Source: Cloacibacterium normanense (GTDB lineage Bacteria > Bacteroidota > Bacteroidia > Flavobacteriales > Weeksellaceae). From it: DNA of 64,000 bases. Each line of letters opens with the position of its first letter. Positions within the stretch are counted from its first letter, which is position 1. The DNA is taken from assembly GCF_002943105.1 (NCBI RefSeq), contig NZ_PTPZ01000004.1, forward strand, positions 124,001 to 188,000, given 5' to 3'. Shown piece after piece: positions 7,468 through 52,112 of this stretch. Made by a program: the position numbers and the translations under genes. The notes beneath the pieces were generated by a model. It did not search any database and was not told where the DNA came from. It saw only the letters and a list, made by a program, of their open reading frames with translations.

Positions 7468-7475
7468 TACATTTG
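7468..7475 (+). promoter_or_regulatory. Promoter -7 box (TACATTTG) of the cobalamin-riboswitch transcript
   Basis: TACATTTG matches TAnnTTTG exactly and ends a few bases before the first riboswitch bases, so the transcript would start at or near the aptamer's 5' end. Confidence 0.65.
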
Positions 7476-7480
7476 CAATG

Positions 7481-7660
7481 CTTTTGGTTTCCGATGTTTG
7501 TCGGAATTAAAATGGGAATTCGGTGAAAATCCGAAACTGTCCCCGCAACTGTAAATCGTGCTTCGGTGAAAATCGAAGGAATTTTTTGCAAAAAAGCCAT
7601 TATCTTATTTGAAAAGATGAGAAGGTGCAAAAAATGCGAAAGTCAGGAGACCTGCCAAAA
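7481..7660 (+). ncRNA. Cobalamin (B12) riboswitch
   Basis: Contains the hallmark cobalamin aptamer strings in order: GGGAATTCGGTGAAAATCCG, then CTGTCCCCGCAACTGTAA (7538-7555) and, near the 3' end, GAAAGTCAGGAGACCTGCC (7638-7656). It sits in the 400-base leader of a TonB-dependent receptor, the standard arrangement for B12-repressed outer-membrane uptake. In the family, bound cobalamin lowers expression of the gene downstream. The 3' boundary is approximate. A later segment (about 7681-7750) can pair GGAAAAG with CTTTTCC and may form the expression platform. Confidence 0.95.
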
Positions 7661-7787
7661 ACATTCATAATCAATACTTTCGGAGGAAAAGTAGAGAAAT
7701 CCTGTAAAAAATGCAGTTCTTCTGTGGTTTTTCTTTATTTCTTTTCCAAAAGTTATTGATAACAGTCATTAACTTTAAAATTTAACA

Positions 7788-44859: not shown

Positions 44860-44923
44860 CAAAAATTCAAGACTTAGAAACTCGACTAAATAAACAAAAA
44901 TTACTTATTATTTCTAAGCGTAA

Positions 44924-45028
44924 CTAGCCCTGATTGCAACGGAAATCCTGTTATTGTGAGCAAAAAACTTGGGATTGCTTCGCTTTGCTCGCAATGACAG
45001 ATTGCAGAGGAAAGCAGGATTAGCTCCT
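44924..45028. repeat. 105-bp intergenic repeat-type element
   Basis: Starts with CTAGCCCTGATTGCAACGG and ends with GGAAAGCAGGATTAGCTCC, two conserved ends of a flavobacterial intergenic element that I recognise from memory. Internal direct repeats GATTGCAACGGAAA and GATTGCAGAGGAAA (12 of 14 identical) frame a central palindromic-looking segment with ATTGC and GCAAT arms. The copy number in the genome cannot be seen from one window. Confidence 0.6.
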
Positions 45029-45059: not shown

Positions 45060-46298
45060 TTAAAATTTTCCGATGTCTTCCCTGTAAAATGCGTAGTCAT
45101 AATGAAGTGTTTTAGCATCTTCATAGACTTTTTCGCGGGCTTCTTCGTAAGTATCACCAGTTGCAACCACGTTAAGCACTCTACCAGAATTGGTGACTAC
45201 TTTTCCTGCAATTTGCTCTGCTCCAGCAAAGAGAACATTGCTGTGTTTTACCTTATCTAAACCTTGGATTTCGTAACCGATTTCAAAATTCCCAGGATAA
45301 CCGCCAGAACACATCACGAGACAAATCGCCTTCTTGTCTGAAAACTGTAAATCTAAATCTTTTCCTTCGATACAGTCATGGATAACATCCAGCAAATTAT
45401 TCTCTAAAAGTGCCATGATGACTTGCGTTTCTGGATCGCCAAATCTCATGTTATATTCTAACAAATAACATTGATTATCTTGTACTAAAACGCCAAAAAA
45501 TATAATCCCTACAAAATTAAGTGCTTTGTCTTTAATTCCTTTAACGGTAGGTTCTAAAATATTTTTATTAAAATCTGCTAAATGCTCTACCGTAAATTCT
45601 GGACTTGGAGCTACAGTTCCCATTCCACCAGTATTTGCGCCAGTATTTCCGTTTCCTACTTTTTTATAATCTTTGGCAGAAACACATGGAAAAGCTTTTT
45701 CGCCATTCCAAAAAGCGATAATAGACGCTTCAAAACCTTGTAAAAATTCTTCTATCACCACTTTTATTCCAGCATCTCCATAAATTCTTTCTATCATGAA
45801 TTGGTGCAAAGTGTGATGCGCAGTTTCTTTGTCTTCACAAATCACTACTCCTTTTCCGCTTGCTAAACCGCTTGCTTTAATCACCAAAGGATAAGAATGA
45901 TTTTGGATATATTGGTCTGCTTCTACATAAGAATCAAAAATAGCAGCTTTGGCTGTTCTGATGCCATAATCTTGCATAAATTTTTTAGAAAAAGCTTTGC
46001 TTCCTTCTAAATCTGCGGCACGTTTTGTAGGGCCAAAAATTTTGAGATTATGTTTCTGAAATTCGTCTACAATACCATTAACTAAAGGTAATTCTGGACC
46101 TACGAATGTGAAATCTATTTTTTCTCTAAGAGCAAAATCTCTTAACTCTGCTACACTGTCATAAGGTAAGTTTTTACCTAAATTTTCTGTTGTAGCATTG
46201 CCTTTTGCAAAAAACATTTGACTGATTCTTTTGTCTTCTGACAATTTTTTTGCAATAGCAGATTCTCTACCTCCGTTTCCTATTATTAATACTTTCAT
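45060..46298 (-). CDS. purD: Phosphoribosylamine-glycine ligase (GARS)
   Basis: ATP-grasp ligase joining phosphoribosylamine and glycine, step 2 of IMP synthesis. N-terminal MKVLIIGNGGRESAIAKKL, ATP-grasp core with ASGLASGKGVVI and NTGGMGTVAPSP, and the metal/substrate string FGDPETQVIMALL. Length 412. It lies 109 bases after purH and has its own -7 box (TAAATTTG), so it is probably transcribed both from that site and by read-through. Its terminator lies directly beyond the stop. Confidence 0.96.
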   Translation of the reverse strand: MKVLIIGNGGRESAIAKKLSEDKRISQMFFAKGNATTENLGKNLPYDSVAELRDFALREKIDFTFVGPELPLVNGIVDEFQKHNLKIFGPTKRAADLEGSKAFSKKFMQDYGIRTAKAAIFDSYVEADQYIQNHSYPLVIKASGLASGKGVVICEDKETAHHTLHQFMIERIYGDAGIKVVIEEFLQGFEASIIAFWNGEKAFPCVSAKDYKKVGNGNTGANTGGMGTVAPSPEFTVEHLADFNKNILEPTVKGIKDKALNFVGIIFFGVLVQDNQCYLLEYNMRFGDPETQVIMALLENNLLDVIHDCIEGKDLDLQFSDKKAICLVMCSGGYPGNFEIGYEIQGLDKVKHSNVLFAGAEQIAGKVVTNSGRVLNVVATGDTYEEAREKVYEDAKTLHYDYAFYREDIGKF

Positions 46299-46407: not shown

Positions 46408-47922
46408 TTAATGTAGGAAATGTCTCATTCCTGTGAACATCATTGGGATTTTATGTTCATTTGCAGCTGCAATAGAATCTTCATCTTTTACAGAACCGCC
46501 AGGTTGAACAATCGCTGTAATTCCTTCTTTAGCACAGAAATCTACCACATCTCTGAATGGGAAAAATGCATCTGAAGCGAGAACTAAATTTCCTGAAAAT
46601 TTCTCTTTCGCTCTAGAAATCGCTTGTTCTGTAGCCCAAATTCTATTGACTTGTCCGCCTCCAATTCCGAAAGCTTGAATTCCGTTTGAAACTACTATAG
46701 CGTTAGATTTTACATATTTAACCACTCTTTGAGCAAATAAAAGTGCTTTTTCTTGCTGTTCTGTTGGTTGAATTTCTGTAACTACTTTAAAGTCTGTAGA
46801 AAATTGGTCATCTACATCTTGAACCAAAATTCCGCCATCTATTTTCACCCAAGTTTTCTTGTCTGAAACTGGATTTTTGATTTTTATAATTCTAAGATTT
46901 TTCTTTTTTCTCAAAATTTCTAGCGCATCTTCATCAAAATCAGTTGCCATTACAATTTCAAGGAAAGTTTTGTTCAATTCTTCCGCAGTTGCAGCATCAA
47001 CTTTGTAATTCATTCCGATGATTCCTCCGAAAATAGAAATCGGGTCGCATTCGAAAGTTTTAGCATAAGTTTCTAAAGCAGTAGTTCCGATGGCAACTCC
47101 ACAAGGTGTAGAATGTTTTACGGCACAACAAGCCATTTCATCTTTGAATTCATTTACCACTTTCCAGCATAAATCCATATCTCTCAAATTATTGAAAGAC
47201 AGTTCTTTGCCTCCTAAAATTTCGAAATCTTTCATCGCGCCGTTTTCTGTAGTAGAAACGTAATACGCTGCCGATTGATGAGGGTTTTCGCCGTATCTTA
47301 AATCAGAAATTTTTTGGTAAGAAGCCTGTAAATATTCAGGATAATCTTCATTCAACAACATTTGAGAAATTGCAGCATCATAAGCAGAAGTTAAGTTGAA
47401 AACTTTACCTGCCAATTTTTTACGAGTTTCAATTGTAGTATCACCGTTTTCAGAGATTTCTTGTTGAACTTTAGCATAATCTTCAACATCGGTAACTACA
47501 GTCACAGAAGCGAAATTTTTAGCTGCAGAACGAAGCATTGATGGTCCACCAATATCGATGAATTCTACTTTTTCTTCTAATGAAATTTCTTTATTTACAT
47601 TTTCGAAAAACGGATAAAGGTTTACAATCACCATATCAATCAGTTCTATTCCATGTTCCTGAACAGTTTTCATGTGTTCTTCGTTATCACGAACCGCAAG
47701 AAGTCCACCATGAACTTTTGGATGAAGGGTTTTTACTCTTCCGTCTAACATTTCAGGAAAATTGGTCACTTCATCAATCTGAATTGGGTTAAGTCCCGCT
47801 TCTTTAAGATGTTTAAAGGTCCCGCCAGTAGAAATGAGTTCGTAATTTTTAGATTCTAAAAATTTGGCAAAATCAATAAGATTGTTTTTGTTGGAGACAC
47901 TGATTAATGCTCGTTTTTTCAT
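46408..47922 (-). CDS. purH: Bifunctional AICAR formyltransferase/IMP cyclohydrolase
   Basis: Last two steps of IMP synthesis. N-terminal cyclohydrolase (MGS-like) domain with [14 protein letters not shown] and [13 protein letters not shown]-terminal transformylase with [15 protein letters not shown] (catalytic Lys-His pair) and [14 protein letters not shown]; ends with a Pro-rich [17 protein letters not shown] segment. Length 504 is normal. It follows purN by 64 bases on the same strand, continuing a purM-purN-purH run. Confidence 0.97.
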
Positions 47923-47986: not shown

Positions 47987-48559
47987 CTATGGAACTCTTT
48001 TATTTAAAACCAAATCAATCGCTTTTGGGAAAATATCGTACTCAATTTGATGCACTTTCTGTGCTAAAGTTTGTGGAGTTTCATTTTCTGCAATTTCAAA
48101 TTTCCCTTGAAGAATAATTTCACCTTCATCAATTCCAGAAGTTACAAAATGAACGGTTGCACCACTTTCTTTTTCTTGGGCTGCAATTACCGCTTCATGA
48201 ACGTGATGTCCCCACATTCCTTTTCCACCAAATTTTGGCAATAAAGCAGGATGAATATTGATGATTTTTCCTTTGTATTTTTCACAAAATTCTTTGCTCA
48301 GAATCGATAGAAAACCAGCTAATACAATCAAATCTGTATTTTCGGGCAAAAGTTTTTCTAAATTTTCAGAGAAATCTTTTCCTCTTTTGATAAGTTGATT
48401 CGGAATTTGATGATTTTCGGCTCTTTCTAAAGCATAGCAATCTCTGTCTGCAACCACCAAATTGACTTTTGTGTTGGGAATTTCTCCATTATCAATACAA
48501 TCAATGATGCGCTGTAAATTGCTACCAGAACCCGAAACTAAAACTGTAATATTTTTCAT
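47987..48559 (-). CDS. purN: Phosphoribosylglycinamide formyltransferase (folate-dependent)
   Basis: Transfers the formyl group of 10-formyl-THF to GAR. Phosphate loop VSGSGSNLQ, the LAGFLSILSKEF segment, catalytic NIHPALLPKFGGKGMWGHHV with Asn-His, and later the Asp-containing VTSGIDEGEII. Length 190 is standard. The start at 48559 is followed upstream by a heptamer repeat array that fills most of the purM-purN gap. Confidence 0.96.
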   Translation of the reverse strand: MKNITVLVSGSGSNLQRIIDCIDNGEIPNTKVNLVVADRDCYALERAENHQIPNQLIKRGKDFSENLEKLLPENTDLIVLAGFLSILSKEFCEKYKGKIINIHPALLPKFGGKGMWGHHVHEAVIAAQEKESGATVHFVTSGIDEGEIILQGKFEIAENETPQTLAQKVHQIEYDIFPKAIDLVLNKRVP

Positions 48560-48562
48560 GTT

Positions 48563-48597
48563 AGATTTCAGATTTCAGATTTCAGATTTCAGATTTT
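48563..48597. repeat. Heptanucleotide tandem repeat, five units
   Basis: Four exact AGATTTC units and a fifth AGATTTT, beginning three bases upstream of the purN start. The following 28-35 bases continue in 7-base register with TCT at the same unit position (TGTCTGA, TATCTCT, TATCTAA, AATCTCG). Confidence 0.8.
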
Positions 48598-48628
48598 TGT
48601 CTGATATCTCTTATCTAAAATCTCGTTT

Positions 48629-49618
48629 CTATATTAATTGAATTTTCTCTTCGTTTTCTACGATTTCACCTACTAAATAAGCGTCTTCGATTAAAGAAAG
48701 TGCTTTTTCGGCAAGACTTTCATCTACTACGATAACCATTCCTACTCCCATGTTAAAAGTACCAAACATTTCCATTCTTTCGATGTTTCCTCGTTTTTCT
48801 AATTCTAACATTACGCTTGGAATTTGGATTTTAGAAGTGTCAATTTTCGCACATAATCCATTCGGAATAATTCTCGGAACGTTTTCGATTAAACCGCCAC
48901 CTGTAATGTGTGCAATTCCTGAAATTTCTACGTTTTCTTTCAGTTTAAAAACGTCTTTGTAATAGAGTTTGGTAGGAACTAAAAGTGTCTCGTAAAGAGG
49001 TTTTCCTTCGAATTCTTCTTCAAAATTTGGGAAAATTTTTCTTACCAATGAAAAACCATTGCTATGGAATCCTGAACTTGGTAAAGCGATGATTTTATCA
49101 CCCGTTTTAATTTTAGAACCATCAATAATTTGGTCTTTTTCTACAATTCCTACGCAGAAACCAGCCACATCATAATCTCCTGGTTGATACATTCCCGGCA
49201 TTTCTGCAGTTTCACCACCAATTAATGCGCACTCATTGTCTTTGCAAGCATTTACCATTCCCAGAACGATTTCTGCTGCTACCTCTGCATCTAGTTTTCC
49301 GCAAGCTAGATAATCTAAGAAAAATAAAGGTTTTGCGCCATGACACAGAATATCATTGGCACACATAGCGAAACAATCTACACCAATAGAATCATATTTT
49401 TTGGTATCTAATGCAATTTTTAATTTGGTTCCTACTCCATCAGTTCCAGAAACCAAAACAGGATTTTTATAGCCACCAATTTCATAGAAAGCTCCAAAAC
49501 TTCCCAGATTGTTCAGTACATTTTTATTGTGCGTTTCGGCTACTGCAGATTTTATTTTGTCTACGGTTTTGTAGCCTTCTTCTTTGTCTACGCCAGCTGA
49601 TTTATACGTATTATTCAT
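48629..49618 (-). CDS. purM: Phosphoribosylformylglycinamidine cyclo-ligase (AIRS)
   Basis: Closes the imidazole ring of AIR with ATP, step 5 of IMP synthesis. Family strings: YKSAGVDKEEGYKTVDKIKS, GVGTKLKIAL, GIDCFAMCANDILCHGAKPL-like VDCFAMCANDILCHGAKPLF, GGETAEMPGMY and HITGGGLIENVPRI. Length 329. It is first of a purM-purN-purH run. Upstream it has a promoter box and a 14-base-pair hairpin in the leader, and further on an apparent independent small-RNA gene. Confidence 0.96.
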   Translation of the reverse strand: MNNTYKSAGVDKEEGYKTVDKIKSAVAETHNKNVLNNLGSFGAFYEIGGYKNPVLVSGTDGVGTKLKIALDTKKYDSIGVDCFAMCANDILCHGAKPLFFLDYLACGKLDAEVAAEIVLGMVNACKDNECALIGGETAEMPGMYQPGDYDVAGFCVGIVEKDQIIDGSKIKTGDKIIALPSSGFHSNGFSLVRKIFPNFEEEFEGKPLYETLLVPTKLYYKDVFKLKENVEISGIAHITGGGLIENVPRIIPNGLCAKIDTSKIQIPSVMLELEKRGNIERMEMFGTFNMGVGMVIVVDESLAEKALSLIEDAYLVGEIVENEEKIQLI

Positions 49619-49637
49619 TTTTCTTTTTGTTTTTTTT

Positions 49638-49674
49638 CTGAATAACTTGCAGGACTTTCACCTGCAAGATTCAG
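49638..49674 (-). promoter_or_regulatory. Hairpin in the purM 5' leader
   Basis: Two stacked stems: CTTGCAGG/CCTGCAAG (8 bp) and CTGAAT/ATTCAG (6 bp) separated by a two-base bulge on one side, loop of seven. In the purM transcript it ends 19 bases before the ATG and is followed by A-rich sequence, not a T run, so it is not a terminator for this strand; on the plus strand it is followed by TTTTT. Confidence 0.55.
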
Positions 49675-49700
49675 GTTTTTACTAGATTTATTTCAAACTG

Positions 49701-49708
49701 CAAACGTA
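49701..49708 (-). promoter_or_regulatory. Promoter -7 box (TACGTTTG) for purM
   Basis: Minus-strand exact TAnnTTTG match 82 bases before the purM ATG, placing the leader hairpin inside the transcript. Confidence 0.55.
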
Positions 49709-49732
49709 TTGAAAATCAAAAATAAACGATAT

Positions 49733-49764
49733 AAAAAAAGCCGACAATCGTTCTGATTATCGGC
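49733..49764 (-). terminator. Intrinsic terminator of the candidate small RNA
   Basis: Stem GCCGATAATC/GATTGTCGGC on the minus strand (one G-U pair), loop AGAAC, then seven T. Confidence 0.85.
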
Positions 49765-49861
49765 CTCAATTATTTTGCTGCGTATTTTAGCTTCCCAATT
49801 TCTTGGAATGTACAAGAGCCAAAATGTTGCGATTTAATATTCAATTTGTTTGGAATTTGAT
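49733..49861 (-). ncRNA. Candidate independent small RNA, about 130 nt
   Basis: The 49619-49943 gap (325 bases) holds no open frame but a complete non-coding transcription unit on the minus strand. A promoter (TTG, 20 bases, TAATTTTG) predicts a start near 49861. The RNA then contains a strong hairpin at 49784-49825: arms ATTTTGGCT and AGCTAAAAT (one G-U pair) around an inner stem CCAA-GAAA-TTGG with a GNRA loop. It ends in a terminator hairpin and seven T. A 6S-type RNA or another flavobacterial structured RNA are possible identities; I cannot test them here. Confidence 0.55.
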
Positions 49862-49865
49862 TTCG

Positions 49866-49896
49866 CAAAATTATATTTTTTATTGACAAAAAGCAA
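49866..49896 (-). promoter_or_regulatory. Promoter of the candidate small RNA
   Basis: -7 box TAATTTTG (49866-49873, minus strand) with TTG at 49894-49896, a 20-base spacing that fits the Bacteroidota -33/-7 promoter geometry. Confidence 0.6.
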
Positions 49897-49943
49897 CAGA
49901 AAAATTTTTTTTTCTTCATTGCTCTTCAATTTTAACTTAATTT

Positions 49944-50666
49944 TTAGATTTTAGGCAATTCCATTGGAACTTCAATCAATAAAATTTCAGAATCCTTATC
50001 TATTTCTAAATCAAAATGTTCTGTTTCTGTAATTCCTAAAGCATCTCTTTGCCCAAGAGTATTTTCGCCAATTTTTACGCTTCCTGAAATAACGAAAACG
50101 TAAACTCCATTTCCTTCTTTTTTGACTTGATAAGTTCTAGAAGATTTTACGGTGAAATTTCCTAAGTGAAACCAAGCGTCTTGGTGAATCCAGGTTCCTT
50201 CATCATTAGGATTAGGAGAAACAATCTGTTGAAATTCATTCTCTACTGCATTGTCAGAAATTTTTAATTGGTCATATCTTGGTTCTACTCCCACTTTATT
50301 AGGAATCACCCAAATTTGCAATAAAGTTACGGGTTGTTCTTTACTTCCGTTAAATTCACTGTGTTGAATTCCTGTTCCTGCACTCATTACCTGAATTTCG
50401 CCTTTTTTAATTGCTCCAAAATTCCCCATAGAATCGCGATGATGTAATTCTCCACTTAATGGAATGGTCACGATTTCCATATTTGCGTGTGGATGCATCC
50501 CAAAACCCATTCCTTTTTCTACAAAATCGTCATTGAGAACTCTTAAATTCCCGAAATGCACTTTGTCTGGATTGTAATAATTTGCAAAAGAAAAACTGTG
50601 ATTGGCAACTAACCAACCGTGATTTTGAAATCCTCTTTCGTTGGCTTTATGTAATATTGTTTTCAT
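49944..50666 (-). CDS. Pirin-family protein (quercetinase-like bicupin)
   Basis: Metal-binding bicupin of about 240 residues. Metal ligands appear in GFGMHPHANMEIVTI (His-x-His and Glu) and GTGIQHSEFN. The N-terminus MKTILHKANERGF is that of YhhW-type pirins. The frame opens 15 codons upstream at 50711, but the ATG at 50666 gives the family start. YhhW homologues have quercetin 2,3-dioxygenase activity in vitro; the natural role is uncertain. A terminator separates it from the Sus locus upstream. Confidence 0.88.
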   Translation of the reverse strand: MKTILHKANERGFQNHGWLVANHSFSFANYYNPDKVHFGNLRVLNDDFVEKGMGFGMHPHANMEIVTIPLSGELHHRDSMGNFGAIKKGEIQVMSAGTGIQHSEFNGSKEQPVTLLQIWVIPNKVGVEPRYDQLKISDNAVENEFQQIVSPNPNDEGTWIHQDAWFHLGNFTVKSSRTYQVKKEGNGVYVFVISGSVKIGENTLGQRDALGITETEHFDLEIDKDSEILLIEVPMELPKI

Positions 50667-50737
50667 ACTTAAATATTTATCAATTTTATACTGCAAAGTT
50701 AGCCTAATCAAAAGCAGAAGTCATTGATGTAAGATAA

Positions 50738-50766
50738 TAAAAAAATCCACCAAAATTTGGTGGATT
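50738..50766 (-). terminator. Intrinsic terminator at the end of the Sus locus
   Basis: Stem AATCCACCA/TGGTGGATT (50744-50752 with 50758-50766) with an A run on its left; acts on minus-strand transcripts after the MFS gene. Confidence 0.88.
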
Positions 50767-50789
50767 ATGAAGTGAATATTTTGAGAAGA

Positions 50790-52112
50790 TTATTCTTTAA
50801 TCACTAAAAGCGCTGCAATTCCTGCAACTGCCATAGAAACACCTGCTAAAGCAACCATGTTAATAGCTGTTCCGCCTAAAGCAGAAAGTAAAACTCCACC
50901 TAATAAACCAGCAGCAATTTGTGGAATAGTAATGGTAGCATTAAAAATTCCCATGTAAACTCCTGTTTGTTTTGCTGGAAGTTTAGAAGATAAAATGGCA
51001 TAAGGCAATGCTAAAATAGCTGCCCAAGCTATACCTACTCCAATCATTGGTAAGAATAATAGGTTTTTGTCTTTGATAAACAAAATAGATAACAAACCAA
51101 GACCACCTAAAATTAAAGAAACAACATAAACATTTCTTCTTCCGTATTTATTTGCTAATGGAGTAATCACTAAAGAAAATAGAGCGGCAAAAACACTATA
51201 AGCGGCAAAGATTACACCGGTCCAGTTTCCTGCTTCGTTAAAAGCATTAGAGGTAGCATCTGTCGTTCCCCAAATATTTTGAGCAATTCCTTGAGTAGTG
51301 TAAACCCACATTAAAAACAATGCAAACCAAGAAAAAAACTGTGTAACAGCCAATTGTTTCATGGCGTTTGGTACATTTTTAATCAAAGTAAAGAAACTTA
51401 CTTTTTCTGGATTTTCGTTTTCTTTTTCTTCTAAATTATTGTATTTCGCGTATTCTTCTGGCGGATATTCTTTCGTTCTAAAAGAAGTCCATAAAACCGA
51501 AGCCAATAAAACTGCTCCACCAATATAGAAAGACCAAATTACAGTAGGTGCAACTTTTTGACCAGCTTCTGGTTCGTTTGCAATTCCCCACCAAGTCAAT
51601 AAAAATGGTAACAGTGAACCGAAAACAGCTCCTACATTAATTAAAAAACTTTGGATAGAATATCCTTTATTTCTTTGAGATTCGTCTACCATATCACTTA
51701 CCAAAGCGCGGAATGGTTGCATGGTAACGTTAAAAGAAACGTCCATGAAAAGCAACATCATCGCTCCAAAGAAAACGGCAGGAAATAATTGTGCGAAATG
51801 TTCAGAATTTGGCATGAAAAACATTGCTAACGCAGAAACAATTGCTCCACCTAAAATAAATGGAATTCTACGACCTAATCTCGTCCAAGTTTTATCACTA
51901 GAAAGACCTACAATAGGTTGTACAAAAAGTCCTGCAAGAGGAGCTGCTAACCAAAAATAGCTTAAATGATGTACATCTGCACCGATTGCCGAAAGAATTC
52001 TACTGGTATTCGCGTTCTGAAGAGAATAACCAATTTGCACTCCCAAAAAACCAAAACTTATGTTCCAGATTTGCCAGAAAGACAAGAGTGGTTTTTTCTG
52101 TGTATTACTCAT
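50790..52112 (-). CDS. MFS sugar transporter (maltose/oligosaccharide symporter type)
   Basis: Twelve-segment major facilitator of 440 residues. The N-terminus LSFWQIWNISFGFLGVQIGY and PIVGLSSDKTWTRLGRRIPF match sugar:proton symporters of the SUC/SLC45-like branch, common beside SusCD and alpha-glucosidase genes in Flavobacteriia. It is 31 bases downstream of the GH13 amylase and ends at a terminator, so it is the last gene of the locus. Expected role: import of maltose or glucose released in the periplasm. The exact sugar is an inference from context. Confidence 0.85.
   Translation of the reverse strand: MSNTQKKPLLSFWQIWNISFGFLGVQIGYSLQNANTSRILSAIGADVHHLSYFWLAAPLAGLFVQPIVGLSSDKTWTRLGRRIPFILGGAIVSALAMFFMPNSEHFAQLFPAVFFGAMMLLFMDVSFNVTMQPFRALVSDMVDESQRNKGYSIQSFLINVGAVFGSLLPFLLTWWGIANEPEAGQKVAPTVIWSFYIGGAVLLASVLWTSFRTKEYPPEEYAKYNNLEEKENENPEKVSFFTLIKNVPNAMKQLAVTQFFSWFALFLMWVYTTQGIAQNIWGTTDATSNAFNEAGNWTGVIFAAYSVFAALFSLVITPLANKYGRRNVYVVSLILGGLGLLSILFIKDKNLLFLPMIGVGIAWAAILALPYAILSSKLPAKQTGVYMGIFNATITIPQIAAGLLGGVLLSALGGTAINMVALAGVSMAVAGIAALLVIKE

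Follow-up and report, generated by a model that had tools for sequence, protein, structure and literature searches.

Attenuators of the trp and his type combine a leader ORF, a first hairpin, and a terminator, and their leader ORFs contain tandem codons of the regulated amino acid. In attenuators of the pyrBI type, a nucleotide-sensitive pause tract lies ahead of the terminator. The pyrBI leader has been given as an example of termination that is blocked by a ribosome (PMC4824070; PMC5021804). For E. coli, PMC4824070 describes that shifting a stop codon from 28 to 5 bp upstream of a terminator lowered the efficiency from ≈90% to <10%, that termination was full beyond 27 nt, that the effect of the stop codon on the terminator was abolished by uncoupling translation, and that pause sites are probably needed for ribosomes to catch up within 100 nt. 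Leader-peptide attenuation has been inferred 5' of amino-acid operons of Flavobacterium psychrophilum, which the same report describes as being without Shine-Dalgarno sequences, and whose Rfp18 sRNA is reported to affect metalloprotease mRNAs (PMC9723704). Long 5' UTRs of B. thetaiotaomicron have been reported to contain sORFs that resemble leader peptides (PMC7366714). A literature search, for which subscription journals were mostly out of reach, found no description of a purM leader.

Here we analyzed a stretch of 64,000 nt from Cloacibacterium normanense (contig NZ_PTPZ01000004.1, positions 124,001 to 188,000; referred to below as the window). A first-pass annotation had proposed that an interval between the pirin and purM genes in this window (positions 49733 to 49896) contains a candidate orphan small RNA, which it considered as a possible 6S-type regulator, trans-acting sRNA, or leader-derived RNA of purM. 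The features of the interval and of the genes that follow it are listed in Table 1.

Table 1. Positions in the window of the leader elements, spacer boxes, and pur genes
Feature	Position	Strand	Basis and remarks
Upstream promoter element TTG	49896-49894	minus	Sequence
TAATTTTG box, TAnnTTTG type	49873-49866	minus	Sequence; 20 bases 3' of TTG
Putative leader ORF, TTG start, 24 codons, TAA stop	49844..49770	minus	Stop 5 nt ahead of terminator GCC core
P1 5' arm	49825-49817	minus	Fold; similar hairpins of other sequence in other genera
Tip hairpin TTCCAA-GAAA-TTGGGA	49793..49808	minus	Fold
P1 3' arm	49792-49784	minus	Fold; moderate covariation in one related group (n = 18, hand-set structure)
Intrinsic terminator (putative attenuator) stem-loop	49767-49737	minus	Scan and conservation
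Terminator T run, seven T	49739-49733	minus	Sequence
TATTTTTG box in purM spacer	49717..49724	minus	Sequence; may be a second promoter of purM in this genus
Further spacer box TACGTTTG	49708-49701	minus	Sequence
purM, proposed controlled gene	48629..49618	minus	Pfam AIRS and AIRS_C
purN	47987..48559	minus	Pfam Formyl_trans_N; in 80/80 PurM-anchored loci
purH	46408..47922	minus	Pfam AICARFT_IMPCHas and MGS; in 80/80 PurM-anchored loci
purD	45060..46298	minus	Pfam GARS domains (window only)

Conservation of a promoter-to-terminator unit upstream of purM

Loci were collected in two ways. With PurM as the only anchor, the best 80 of 261 relatives were taken, which are thus close relatives (Cloacibacterium, Chryseobacterium, Kaistella, Epilithonimonas, Soonwooa, and two unassigned names). 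In every one of these 80 loci, a promoter box, a leader of ≈100 nt, and a GCCGA..TCGGC terminator lie 5' of purM on the same strand. Similarity to the DNA of the element returned 30 loci (weaker matches without a returned locus were left out), of which 29 precede purM; the exception is L038, a short match that lacks the terminator. The 80 anchored loci, the 29 found by similarity, and the window's own copy found again (L001) make up the 110 element loci counted below, which reduce to 82 distinct elements and 101 distinct element-plus-spacer loci, several species being present twice. Loci of 6S RNA (L002-L009) were left out of these counts. That purM lies 3' of the element in 110/110 loci is a result for the 29 similarity-found loci and follows from the choice of anchor for the 80 PurM-anchored loci. 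Together, this comparison strongly supports a conserved unit that runs from promoter to terminator, in agreement with the discrete transcription unit of the first-pass annotation.

Among purM loci of 23 genera, the element is present in 13 and absent within 400 nt in 10; the 25 genomes behind this count were picked by hand, 2 of them had no match, and some were picked for a known match, so that 13/23 is no unbiased rate. One of the 13 (L160) was called by eye where the script had missed it. By eye, no element was seen in 420 nt at six loci from three other families (L127, L128, and L129-L132). Many genomes of the order's other families (L133-L149) have only a weak match to this PurM, in open frames of ≈350-430 codons compared to 329 residues here.

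The promoter layout that had been proposed (TTG, 20 bases, TAATTTTG) is present on the minus strand at the positions originally given, and the TAnnTTTG consensus and its position at -12 to -5 relative to the start, as given in PMC9723704, put the predicted start at 49861. A single-sequence promoter scan of positions 48000-52000 with an E. coli-type consensus gave 15 matches compared to 13.1 in shuffles, which is no excess, and the promoter call therefore depends on conservation. A TAnnTT[TC]G box lies 103-126 nt ahead of the terminator in 110/110 element loci (82 distinct), and a TTG lies 17-22 nt 5' of the box in 83 of the 101 distinct element loci.

The terminator with its seven T was likewise recovered and has 13 pairs by the count of the scan, in which G-T pairs are allowed. 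A terminator of the GCCGA..TCGGC type occurs in all 110 element loci, where the same pattern also served as the locating criterion, and extra A-U pairs lengthen the stem outward in some copies. Genome-wide, six strand-specific matches to the terminator were found at four sites in 2.84 Mb, compared to none in the control; the terminator is not repeated throughout the genome.

Folding of the leader and hairpin P1

The hairpin of the first-pass annotation, here called P1, was confirmed in the window; it has 9-bp arms and a one-sided bulge of 8 nt, and in its CCAA-GAAA-TTGG tip two C-G pairs are unchanged in 22/22 aligned sequences. The 146-nt stretch folds better than 200/200 shuffles (z = -4.2), and the terminator supplies most of this stability. 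Without the terminator, the z-score of the window leader is -1.0, and 33 leaders treated in the same way gave energy z-scores between -3.8 and +0.2. A long hairpin extends over much of the ORF (see below) in many copies, with arms that vary by genus (AUUUUGGCU/AGCUAAAAU in the window, ACAAGUUC/GAACUUGU in L033, UUCAGA/UCUGAA in L051, and UGCUUAUUUU/AAAAUAAGCA in L163). The best long-range stem of 19 leaders, whose sequences are related, exceeds shuffles in the joint test only (Fisher p = 3e-4) and differs from P1 in several of them. Single folds give weak support to P1.

Moderate covariation of P1 is indicated in one group of 18 sequences, in which the structure was hand-set from those sequences' own folds; 84% paired compared to 29-53% when slid, with 17 two-sided cells, and none of 500 shuffles reached the pairing or the cells, whereas 33 reached the number of two-sided pairs and 336 that of pair types. 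By contrast, two-sided changes affected 1/16, 0/16, and 0/26 pairs in three within-group alignments, and RNAalifold recovered P1 in one of the three and not in the other two. No conserved unpaired core or seed was noticed in the alignments.

A short ORF that ends next to the terminator

The interval had been described as being without any open frame, which is wrong. A 49-codon minus-strand frame (49919..49770) covers it, and the first start codon past the predicted transcript start is the TTG at 49844, which leaves a 24-codon frame within the transcript. An ORF of 23-32 codons is present in 82/82 distinct copies (start codons ATG in 57, TTG in 15, and GTG in 10), with a predicted 5' UTR of 6-23 nt. 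Its stop codon lies 4-7 nt ahead of the GCC core of the terminator in 76 of the 82 copies; the remaining stops are 0, 11, and 12 nt ahead of the core (one each) or 8 nt inside it (three copies). For each copy, the ORF was chosen by an end within -10 to +14 nt of the GCC core, with 3-9 nt preferred, and every frame of at least 15 codons was listed separately. An equivalent ORF occurs in 19/19 representatives compared to 2.6-11% of shuffled leaders, and in 16/19 compared to 1.9-5.9% under a stricter rule; because these rules were fixed after the ORFs had been seen and the sequences are related, these figures give no overall probability for the excess. Four further genera (L163, L170, L172, and L173) also have such an ORF, whose stop, counted from the stem, lies at +2, -2, +4, and -10, respectively.

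Linkage of the leader to purM

The distance from the terminator to purM is as short as 35-37 nt in some loci (L095, L028, L041, and L048), and among the 18 spacers no longer than 60 nt, 15 contain no TAnnTT[TC]G box. Overall, 27 of the 101 distinct loci, including the window, have a box in the spacer, and 10 of the 101 have one with a TTG at a fitting distance, counts that were made with no shuffled control. In two loci, a YcxB-like gene (PF14317) lies between terminator and purM and starts 12 nt (L097) or 10 nt (L113) past the T run. At this distance, the gene needs read-through of the terminator, unless its promoter overlaps the terminator. The YcxB-like gene is at the same place in both loci though their leaders differ. 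In the ten genera without the leader, a promoter box lies 33-61 nt ahead of purM in five, and none is present within 90 nt in the other five. The locus L169 has, by eye, the same divergent neighbor as L041 and a promoter box directly ahead of purM. A palindrome (CTTGCAGG/CCTGCAAG; window 49643-49676) is present in the purM spacer, and others are similarly placed, for example in L042 and L050.

These results bear on whether the terminated 129-nt RNA is an autonomous sRNA that base-pairs in trans, with purM under its own promoter. Such an sRNA would account for a complete promoter-to-terminator unit, as read from sequence and conservation, for a P1 that is re-formed with differing sequences across genera, and for the boxes in the window spacer that may serve as a second promoter of purM; in all 27 of the 101 loci with a spacer box, purM may be independent of the unit. 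Against it, the unit precedes purM in 80/80 PurM-anchored and 29/30 similarity-found loci and each distinct copy contains the ORF; moreover, several lineages have no visible second promoter, and the sequence of P1 turns over between genera without a noticed unpaired seed. We therefore regard an autonomous sRNA as unlikely. The gaps down to 35 nt, the YcxB-like gene close to the T run, and the promoter boxes in five of the ten leaderless genera argue for a leader over an orphan sRNA, and we conclude that the stretch is probably a purM leader rather than a free-standing small RNA. The term orphan does not suit a unit that precedes purM in 80/80 anchored loci and is followed by no other box in 15 of 18 short spacers, and for purM the comparison contradicts the statement that neither flanking protein gene needs its parts. 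Among the three original options, the evidence favors a leader-derived RNA of purM. The same leader was not seen by eye in the 450 nt upstream of purE, purF, and purB of the same genome.

Constraint on the predicted leader peptide

The ratio pN/pS of the ORF is 0.56 compared to 0.62 and 0.77 in the other two frames (34 unique ORFs), which suggests weak constraint on the amino acids and gives no support to a strongly selected peptide. Peptide similarity is seen within and between some genera, including endings such as GNVVDSEILR and GNVIDAEK; the peptides of L163, L170, L172, and L173 look largely unrelated. The ORF of L041 has a one-base gap relative to its relatives and still terminates close to the terminator. 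The weak pN/pS constraint and this gap imply that selection seems to act on the placement of the ORF more than on the peptide. Alternatively, the ORF could be the gene of a peptide of ≈24 residues that has its own function and stands ahead of purM by chance. The presence of the ORF in all distinct copies and the shared peptide endings agree with a small-protein gene, but the weak constraint, the gap in L041, and the dissimilar peptides of the four further genera do not, and the terminator spacing and the linkage to purM would be left unexplained; we consider this alternative quite unlikely.

Comparison with RNA families

No Rfam family reached its threshold at the window site, the flavobacterial 6S family included, nor anywhere in eight relative loci, and a plasmid search gave no match. 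The 6S-Flavo RNA (RF01685) is likewise a small structured flavobacterial RNA, but the sole match of this genome lies at another place (G000:C11:319110), and a permissive Rfam search of the region gave 18 matches with no 6S family among them; the suggestion of a 6S-type regulator was therefore dropped. Homologues of 6S-Flavo RNA (G000:C11:319110-319214 and L002-L009) were found in 16/21 genomes at 38-76 bits, all below the Rfam cut-off of 85, which seems to miss such homologues. A match to the trpB motif (RF04312; 29.6 bits, E = 0.033) fell short of the gathering cut-off of 59 bits, and matches to greA and STnc430 were also under their gathering scores; as read from the alignments, the trpB and greA matches cover mainly the hairpin and the terminator. 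Elsewhere in the window, a Flavo-1 RNA (RF01705, 58.7 bits; 44922-45025, plus strand) lies just past the end of purD on the opposite strand, and a Cobalamin riboswitch (RF00174, 103.7 bits) lies at 7468-7673 on the plus strand. A leader that responds to a ligand or a protein, with an ORF of no consequence, would fit a structured leader and terminator ahead of a biosynthetic gene, but is very unlikely given that no Rfam riboswitch exceeded its threshold at the site, that no conserved unpaired core was noticed in the alignments, and that the ORF placement is far above chance.

Proposed attenuation mechanism

Based on sequence comparison, we favor, as rather likely, that the stretch is the 5' leader of the purM transcript, with purN, purH, and purD following purM, and that it works as a transcription attenuator with a leader ORF, which would control purM and the downstream pur genes. 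Transcription would begin near 49861, and a 5' UTR of ≈17 nt would precede the 24-codon ORF, which would be translated. A ribosome that is close behind RNA polymerase would cover the 5' side of the terminator when it reaches the stop codon and so allow read-through into purM, whereas a lagging ribosome would let the terminator close and a ≈129-nt RNA would be freed. The spacing of 4-7 nt between stop codon and terminator fits the E. coli precedent, and P1, which lies over a large part of the ORF, may stall the polymerase long enough for the ribosome to arrive and could thereby supply the needed pause. Against this reading count the box in 27 of the 101 spacers, which could be a second purM promoter, the five leaderless genera with no box within 90 nt of purM, the weak support for P1, the missing leader at purE, purF, and purB, and the need of E. 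coli ribosomes for a pause.

A purine-related signal is put forward as a proposal. The segment ahead of the terminator gave p > 0.1 for an antiterminator in 18 of 22 representatives and p = 0.05-0.1 in the other four (Chryseobacterium and Soonwooa), and no conserved antiterminator was found. A trp-like antiterminator was rejected for want of conserved pairing. The fraction of A ahead of the terminator is 0.48 compared to 0.42 in the rest of the leader, and is higher in 54/82 copies; this signal is weak for a purine-rich pause tract. Because a conserved antiterminator is absent and the purine richness is slight, the purine-sensing step remains a proposal.

If the attenuator reading is right, expression of purM in the Chryseobacterium group, possibly together with that of the following pur genes, would be controlled by a leader that contains a very small ORF and acts according to the position of the ribosome, and the sRNA-style annotation would be corrected. 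The locus would also lend itself to a simple test of whether transcription and translation are coupled in this group, to which F. psychrophilum, reported to have no Shine-Dalgarno sequences, is related.

Relationship to known systems

The Rfp18 sRNA of F. psychrophilum (PMC9723704) is, by its description, likewise a small structured transcript from the same phylum, but differs in its reported effect on metalloprotease mRNAs. The E. coli attenuators of the trp and his type have a leader ORF, a first hairpin, and a terminator in common with it; unlike them, the locus has no conserved antiterminator pairing, and no run of tandem regulatory codons was seen by eye in the translated leader ORFs. Several features also set it apart from pyrBI. 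The gene is a purine gene, a long hairpin lies over much of the ORF, and no clear NTP-sensitive pause tract was found; moreover, the ORF mostly stops just ahead of the terminator, but in pyrBI the terminator is said to lie inside the leader peptide (PMC4824070). More tentatively, the leader could be a purine counterpart of pyrBI, in which the supply of ATP and GTP is read through a race of polymerase and ribosome on an ORF of ≈24 codons whose peptide hardly matters, and which sets the expression of purM and the pur genes in the Chryseobacterium group. We hold this specific reading to be doubtful; if true, it would imply transcription-translation coupling in Bacteroidota. What the locus shares with the pyrBI leader (pyrL) of E. 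coli, here as judged from sequence, is a biosynthetic operon, a short leader ORF, and an intrinsic terminator, which a close ribosome blocks in pyrBI (PMC5021804; PMC4824070) and would block here, and a short ORF that ends at or in a terminator 5' of a biosynthetic gene is present in 82/82 distinct copies.
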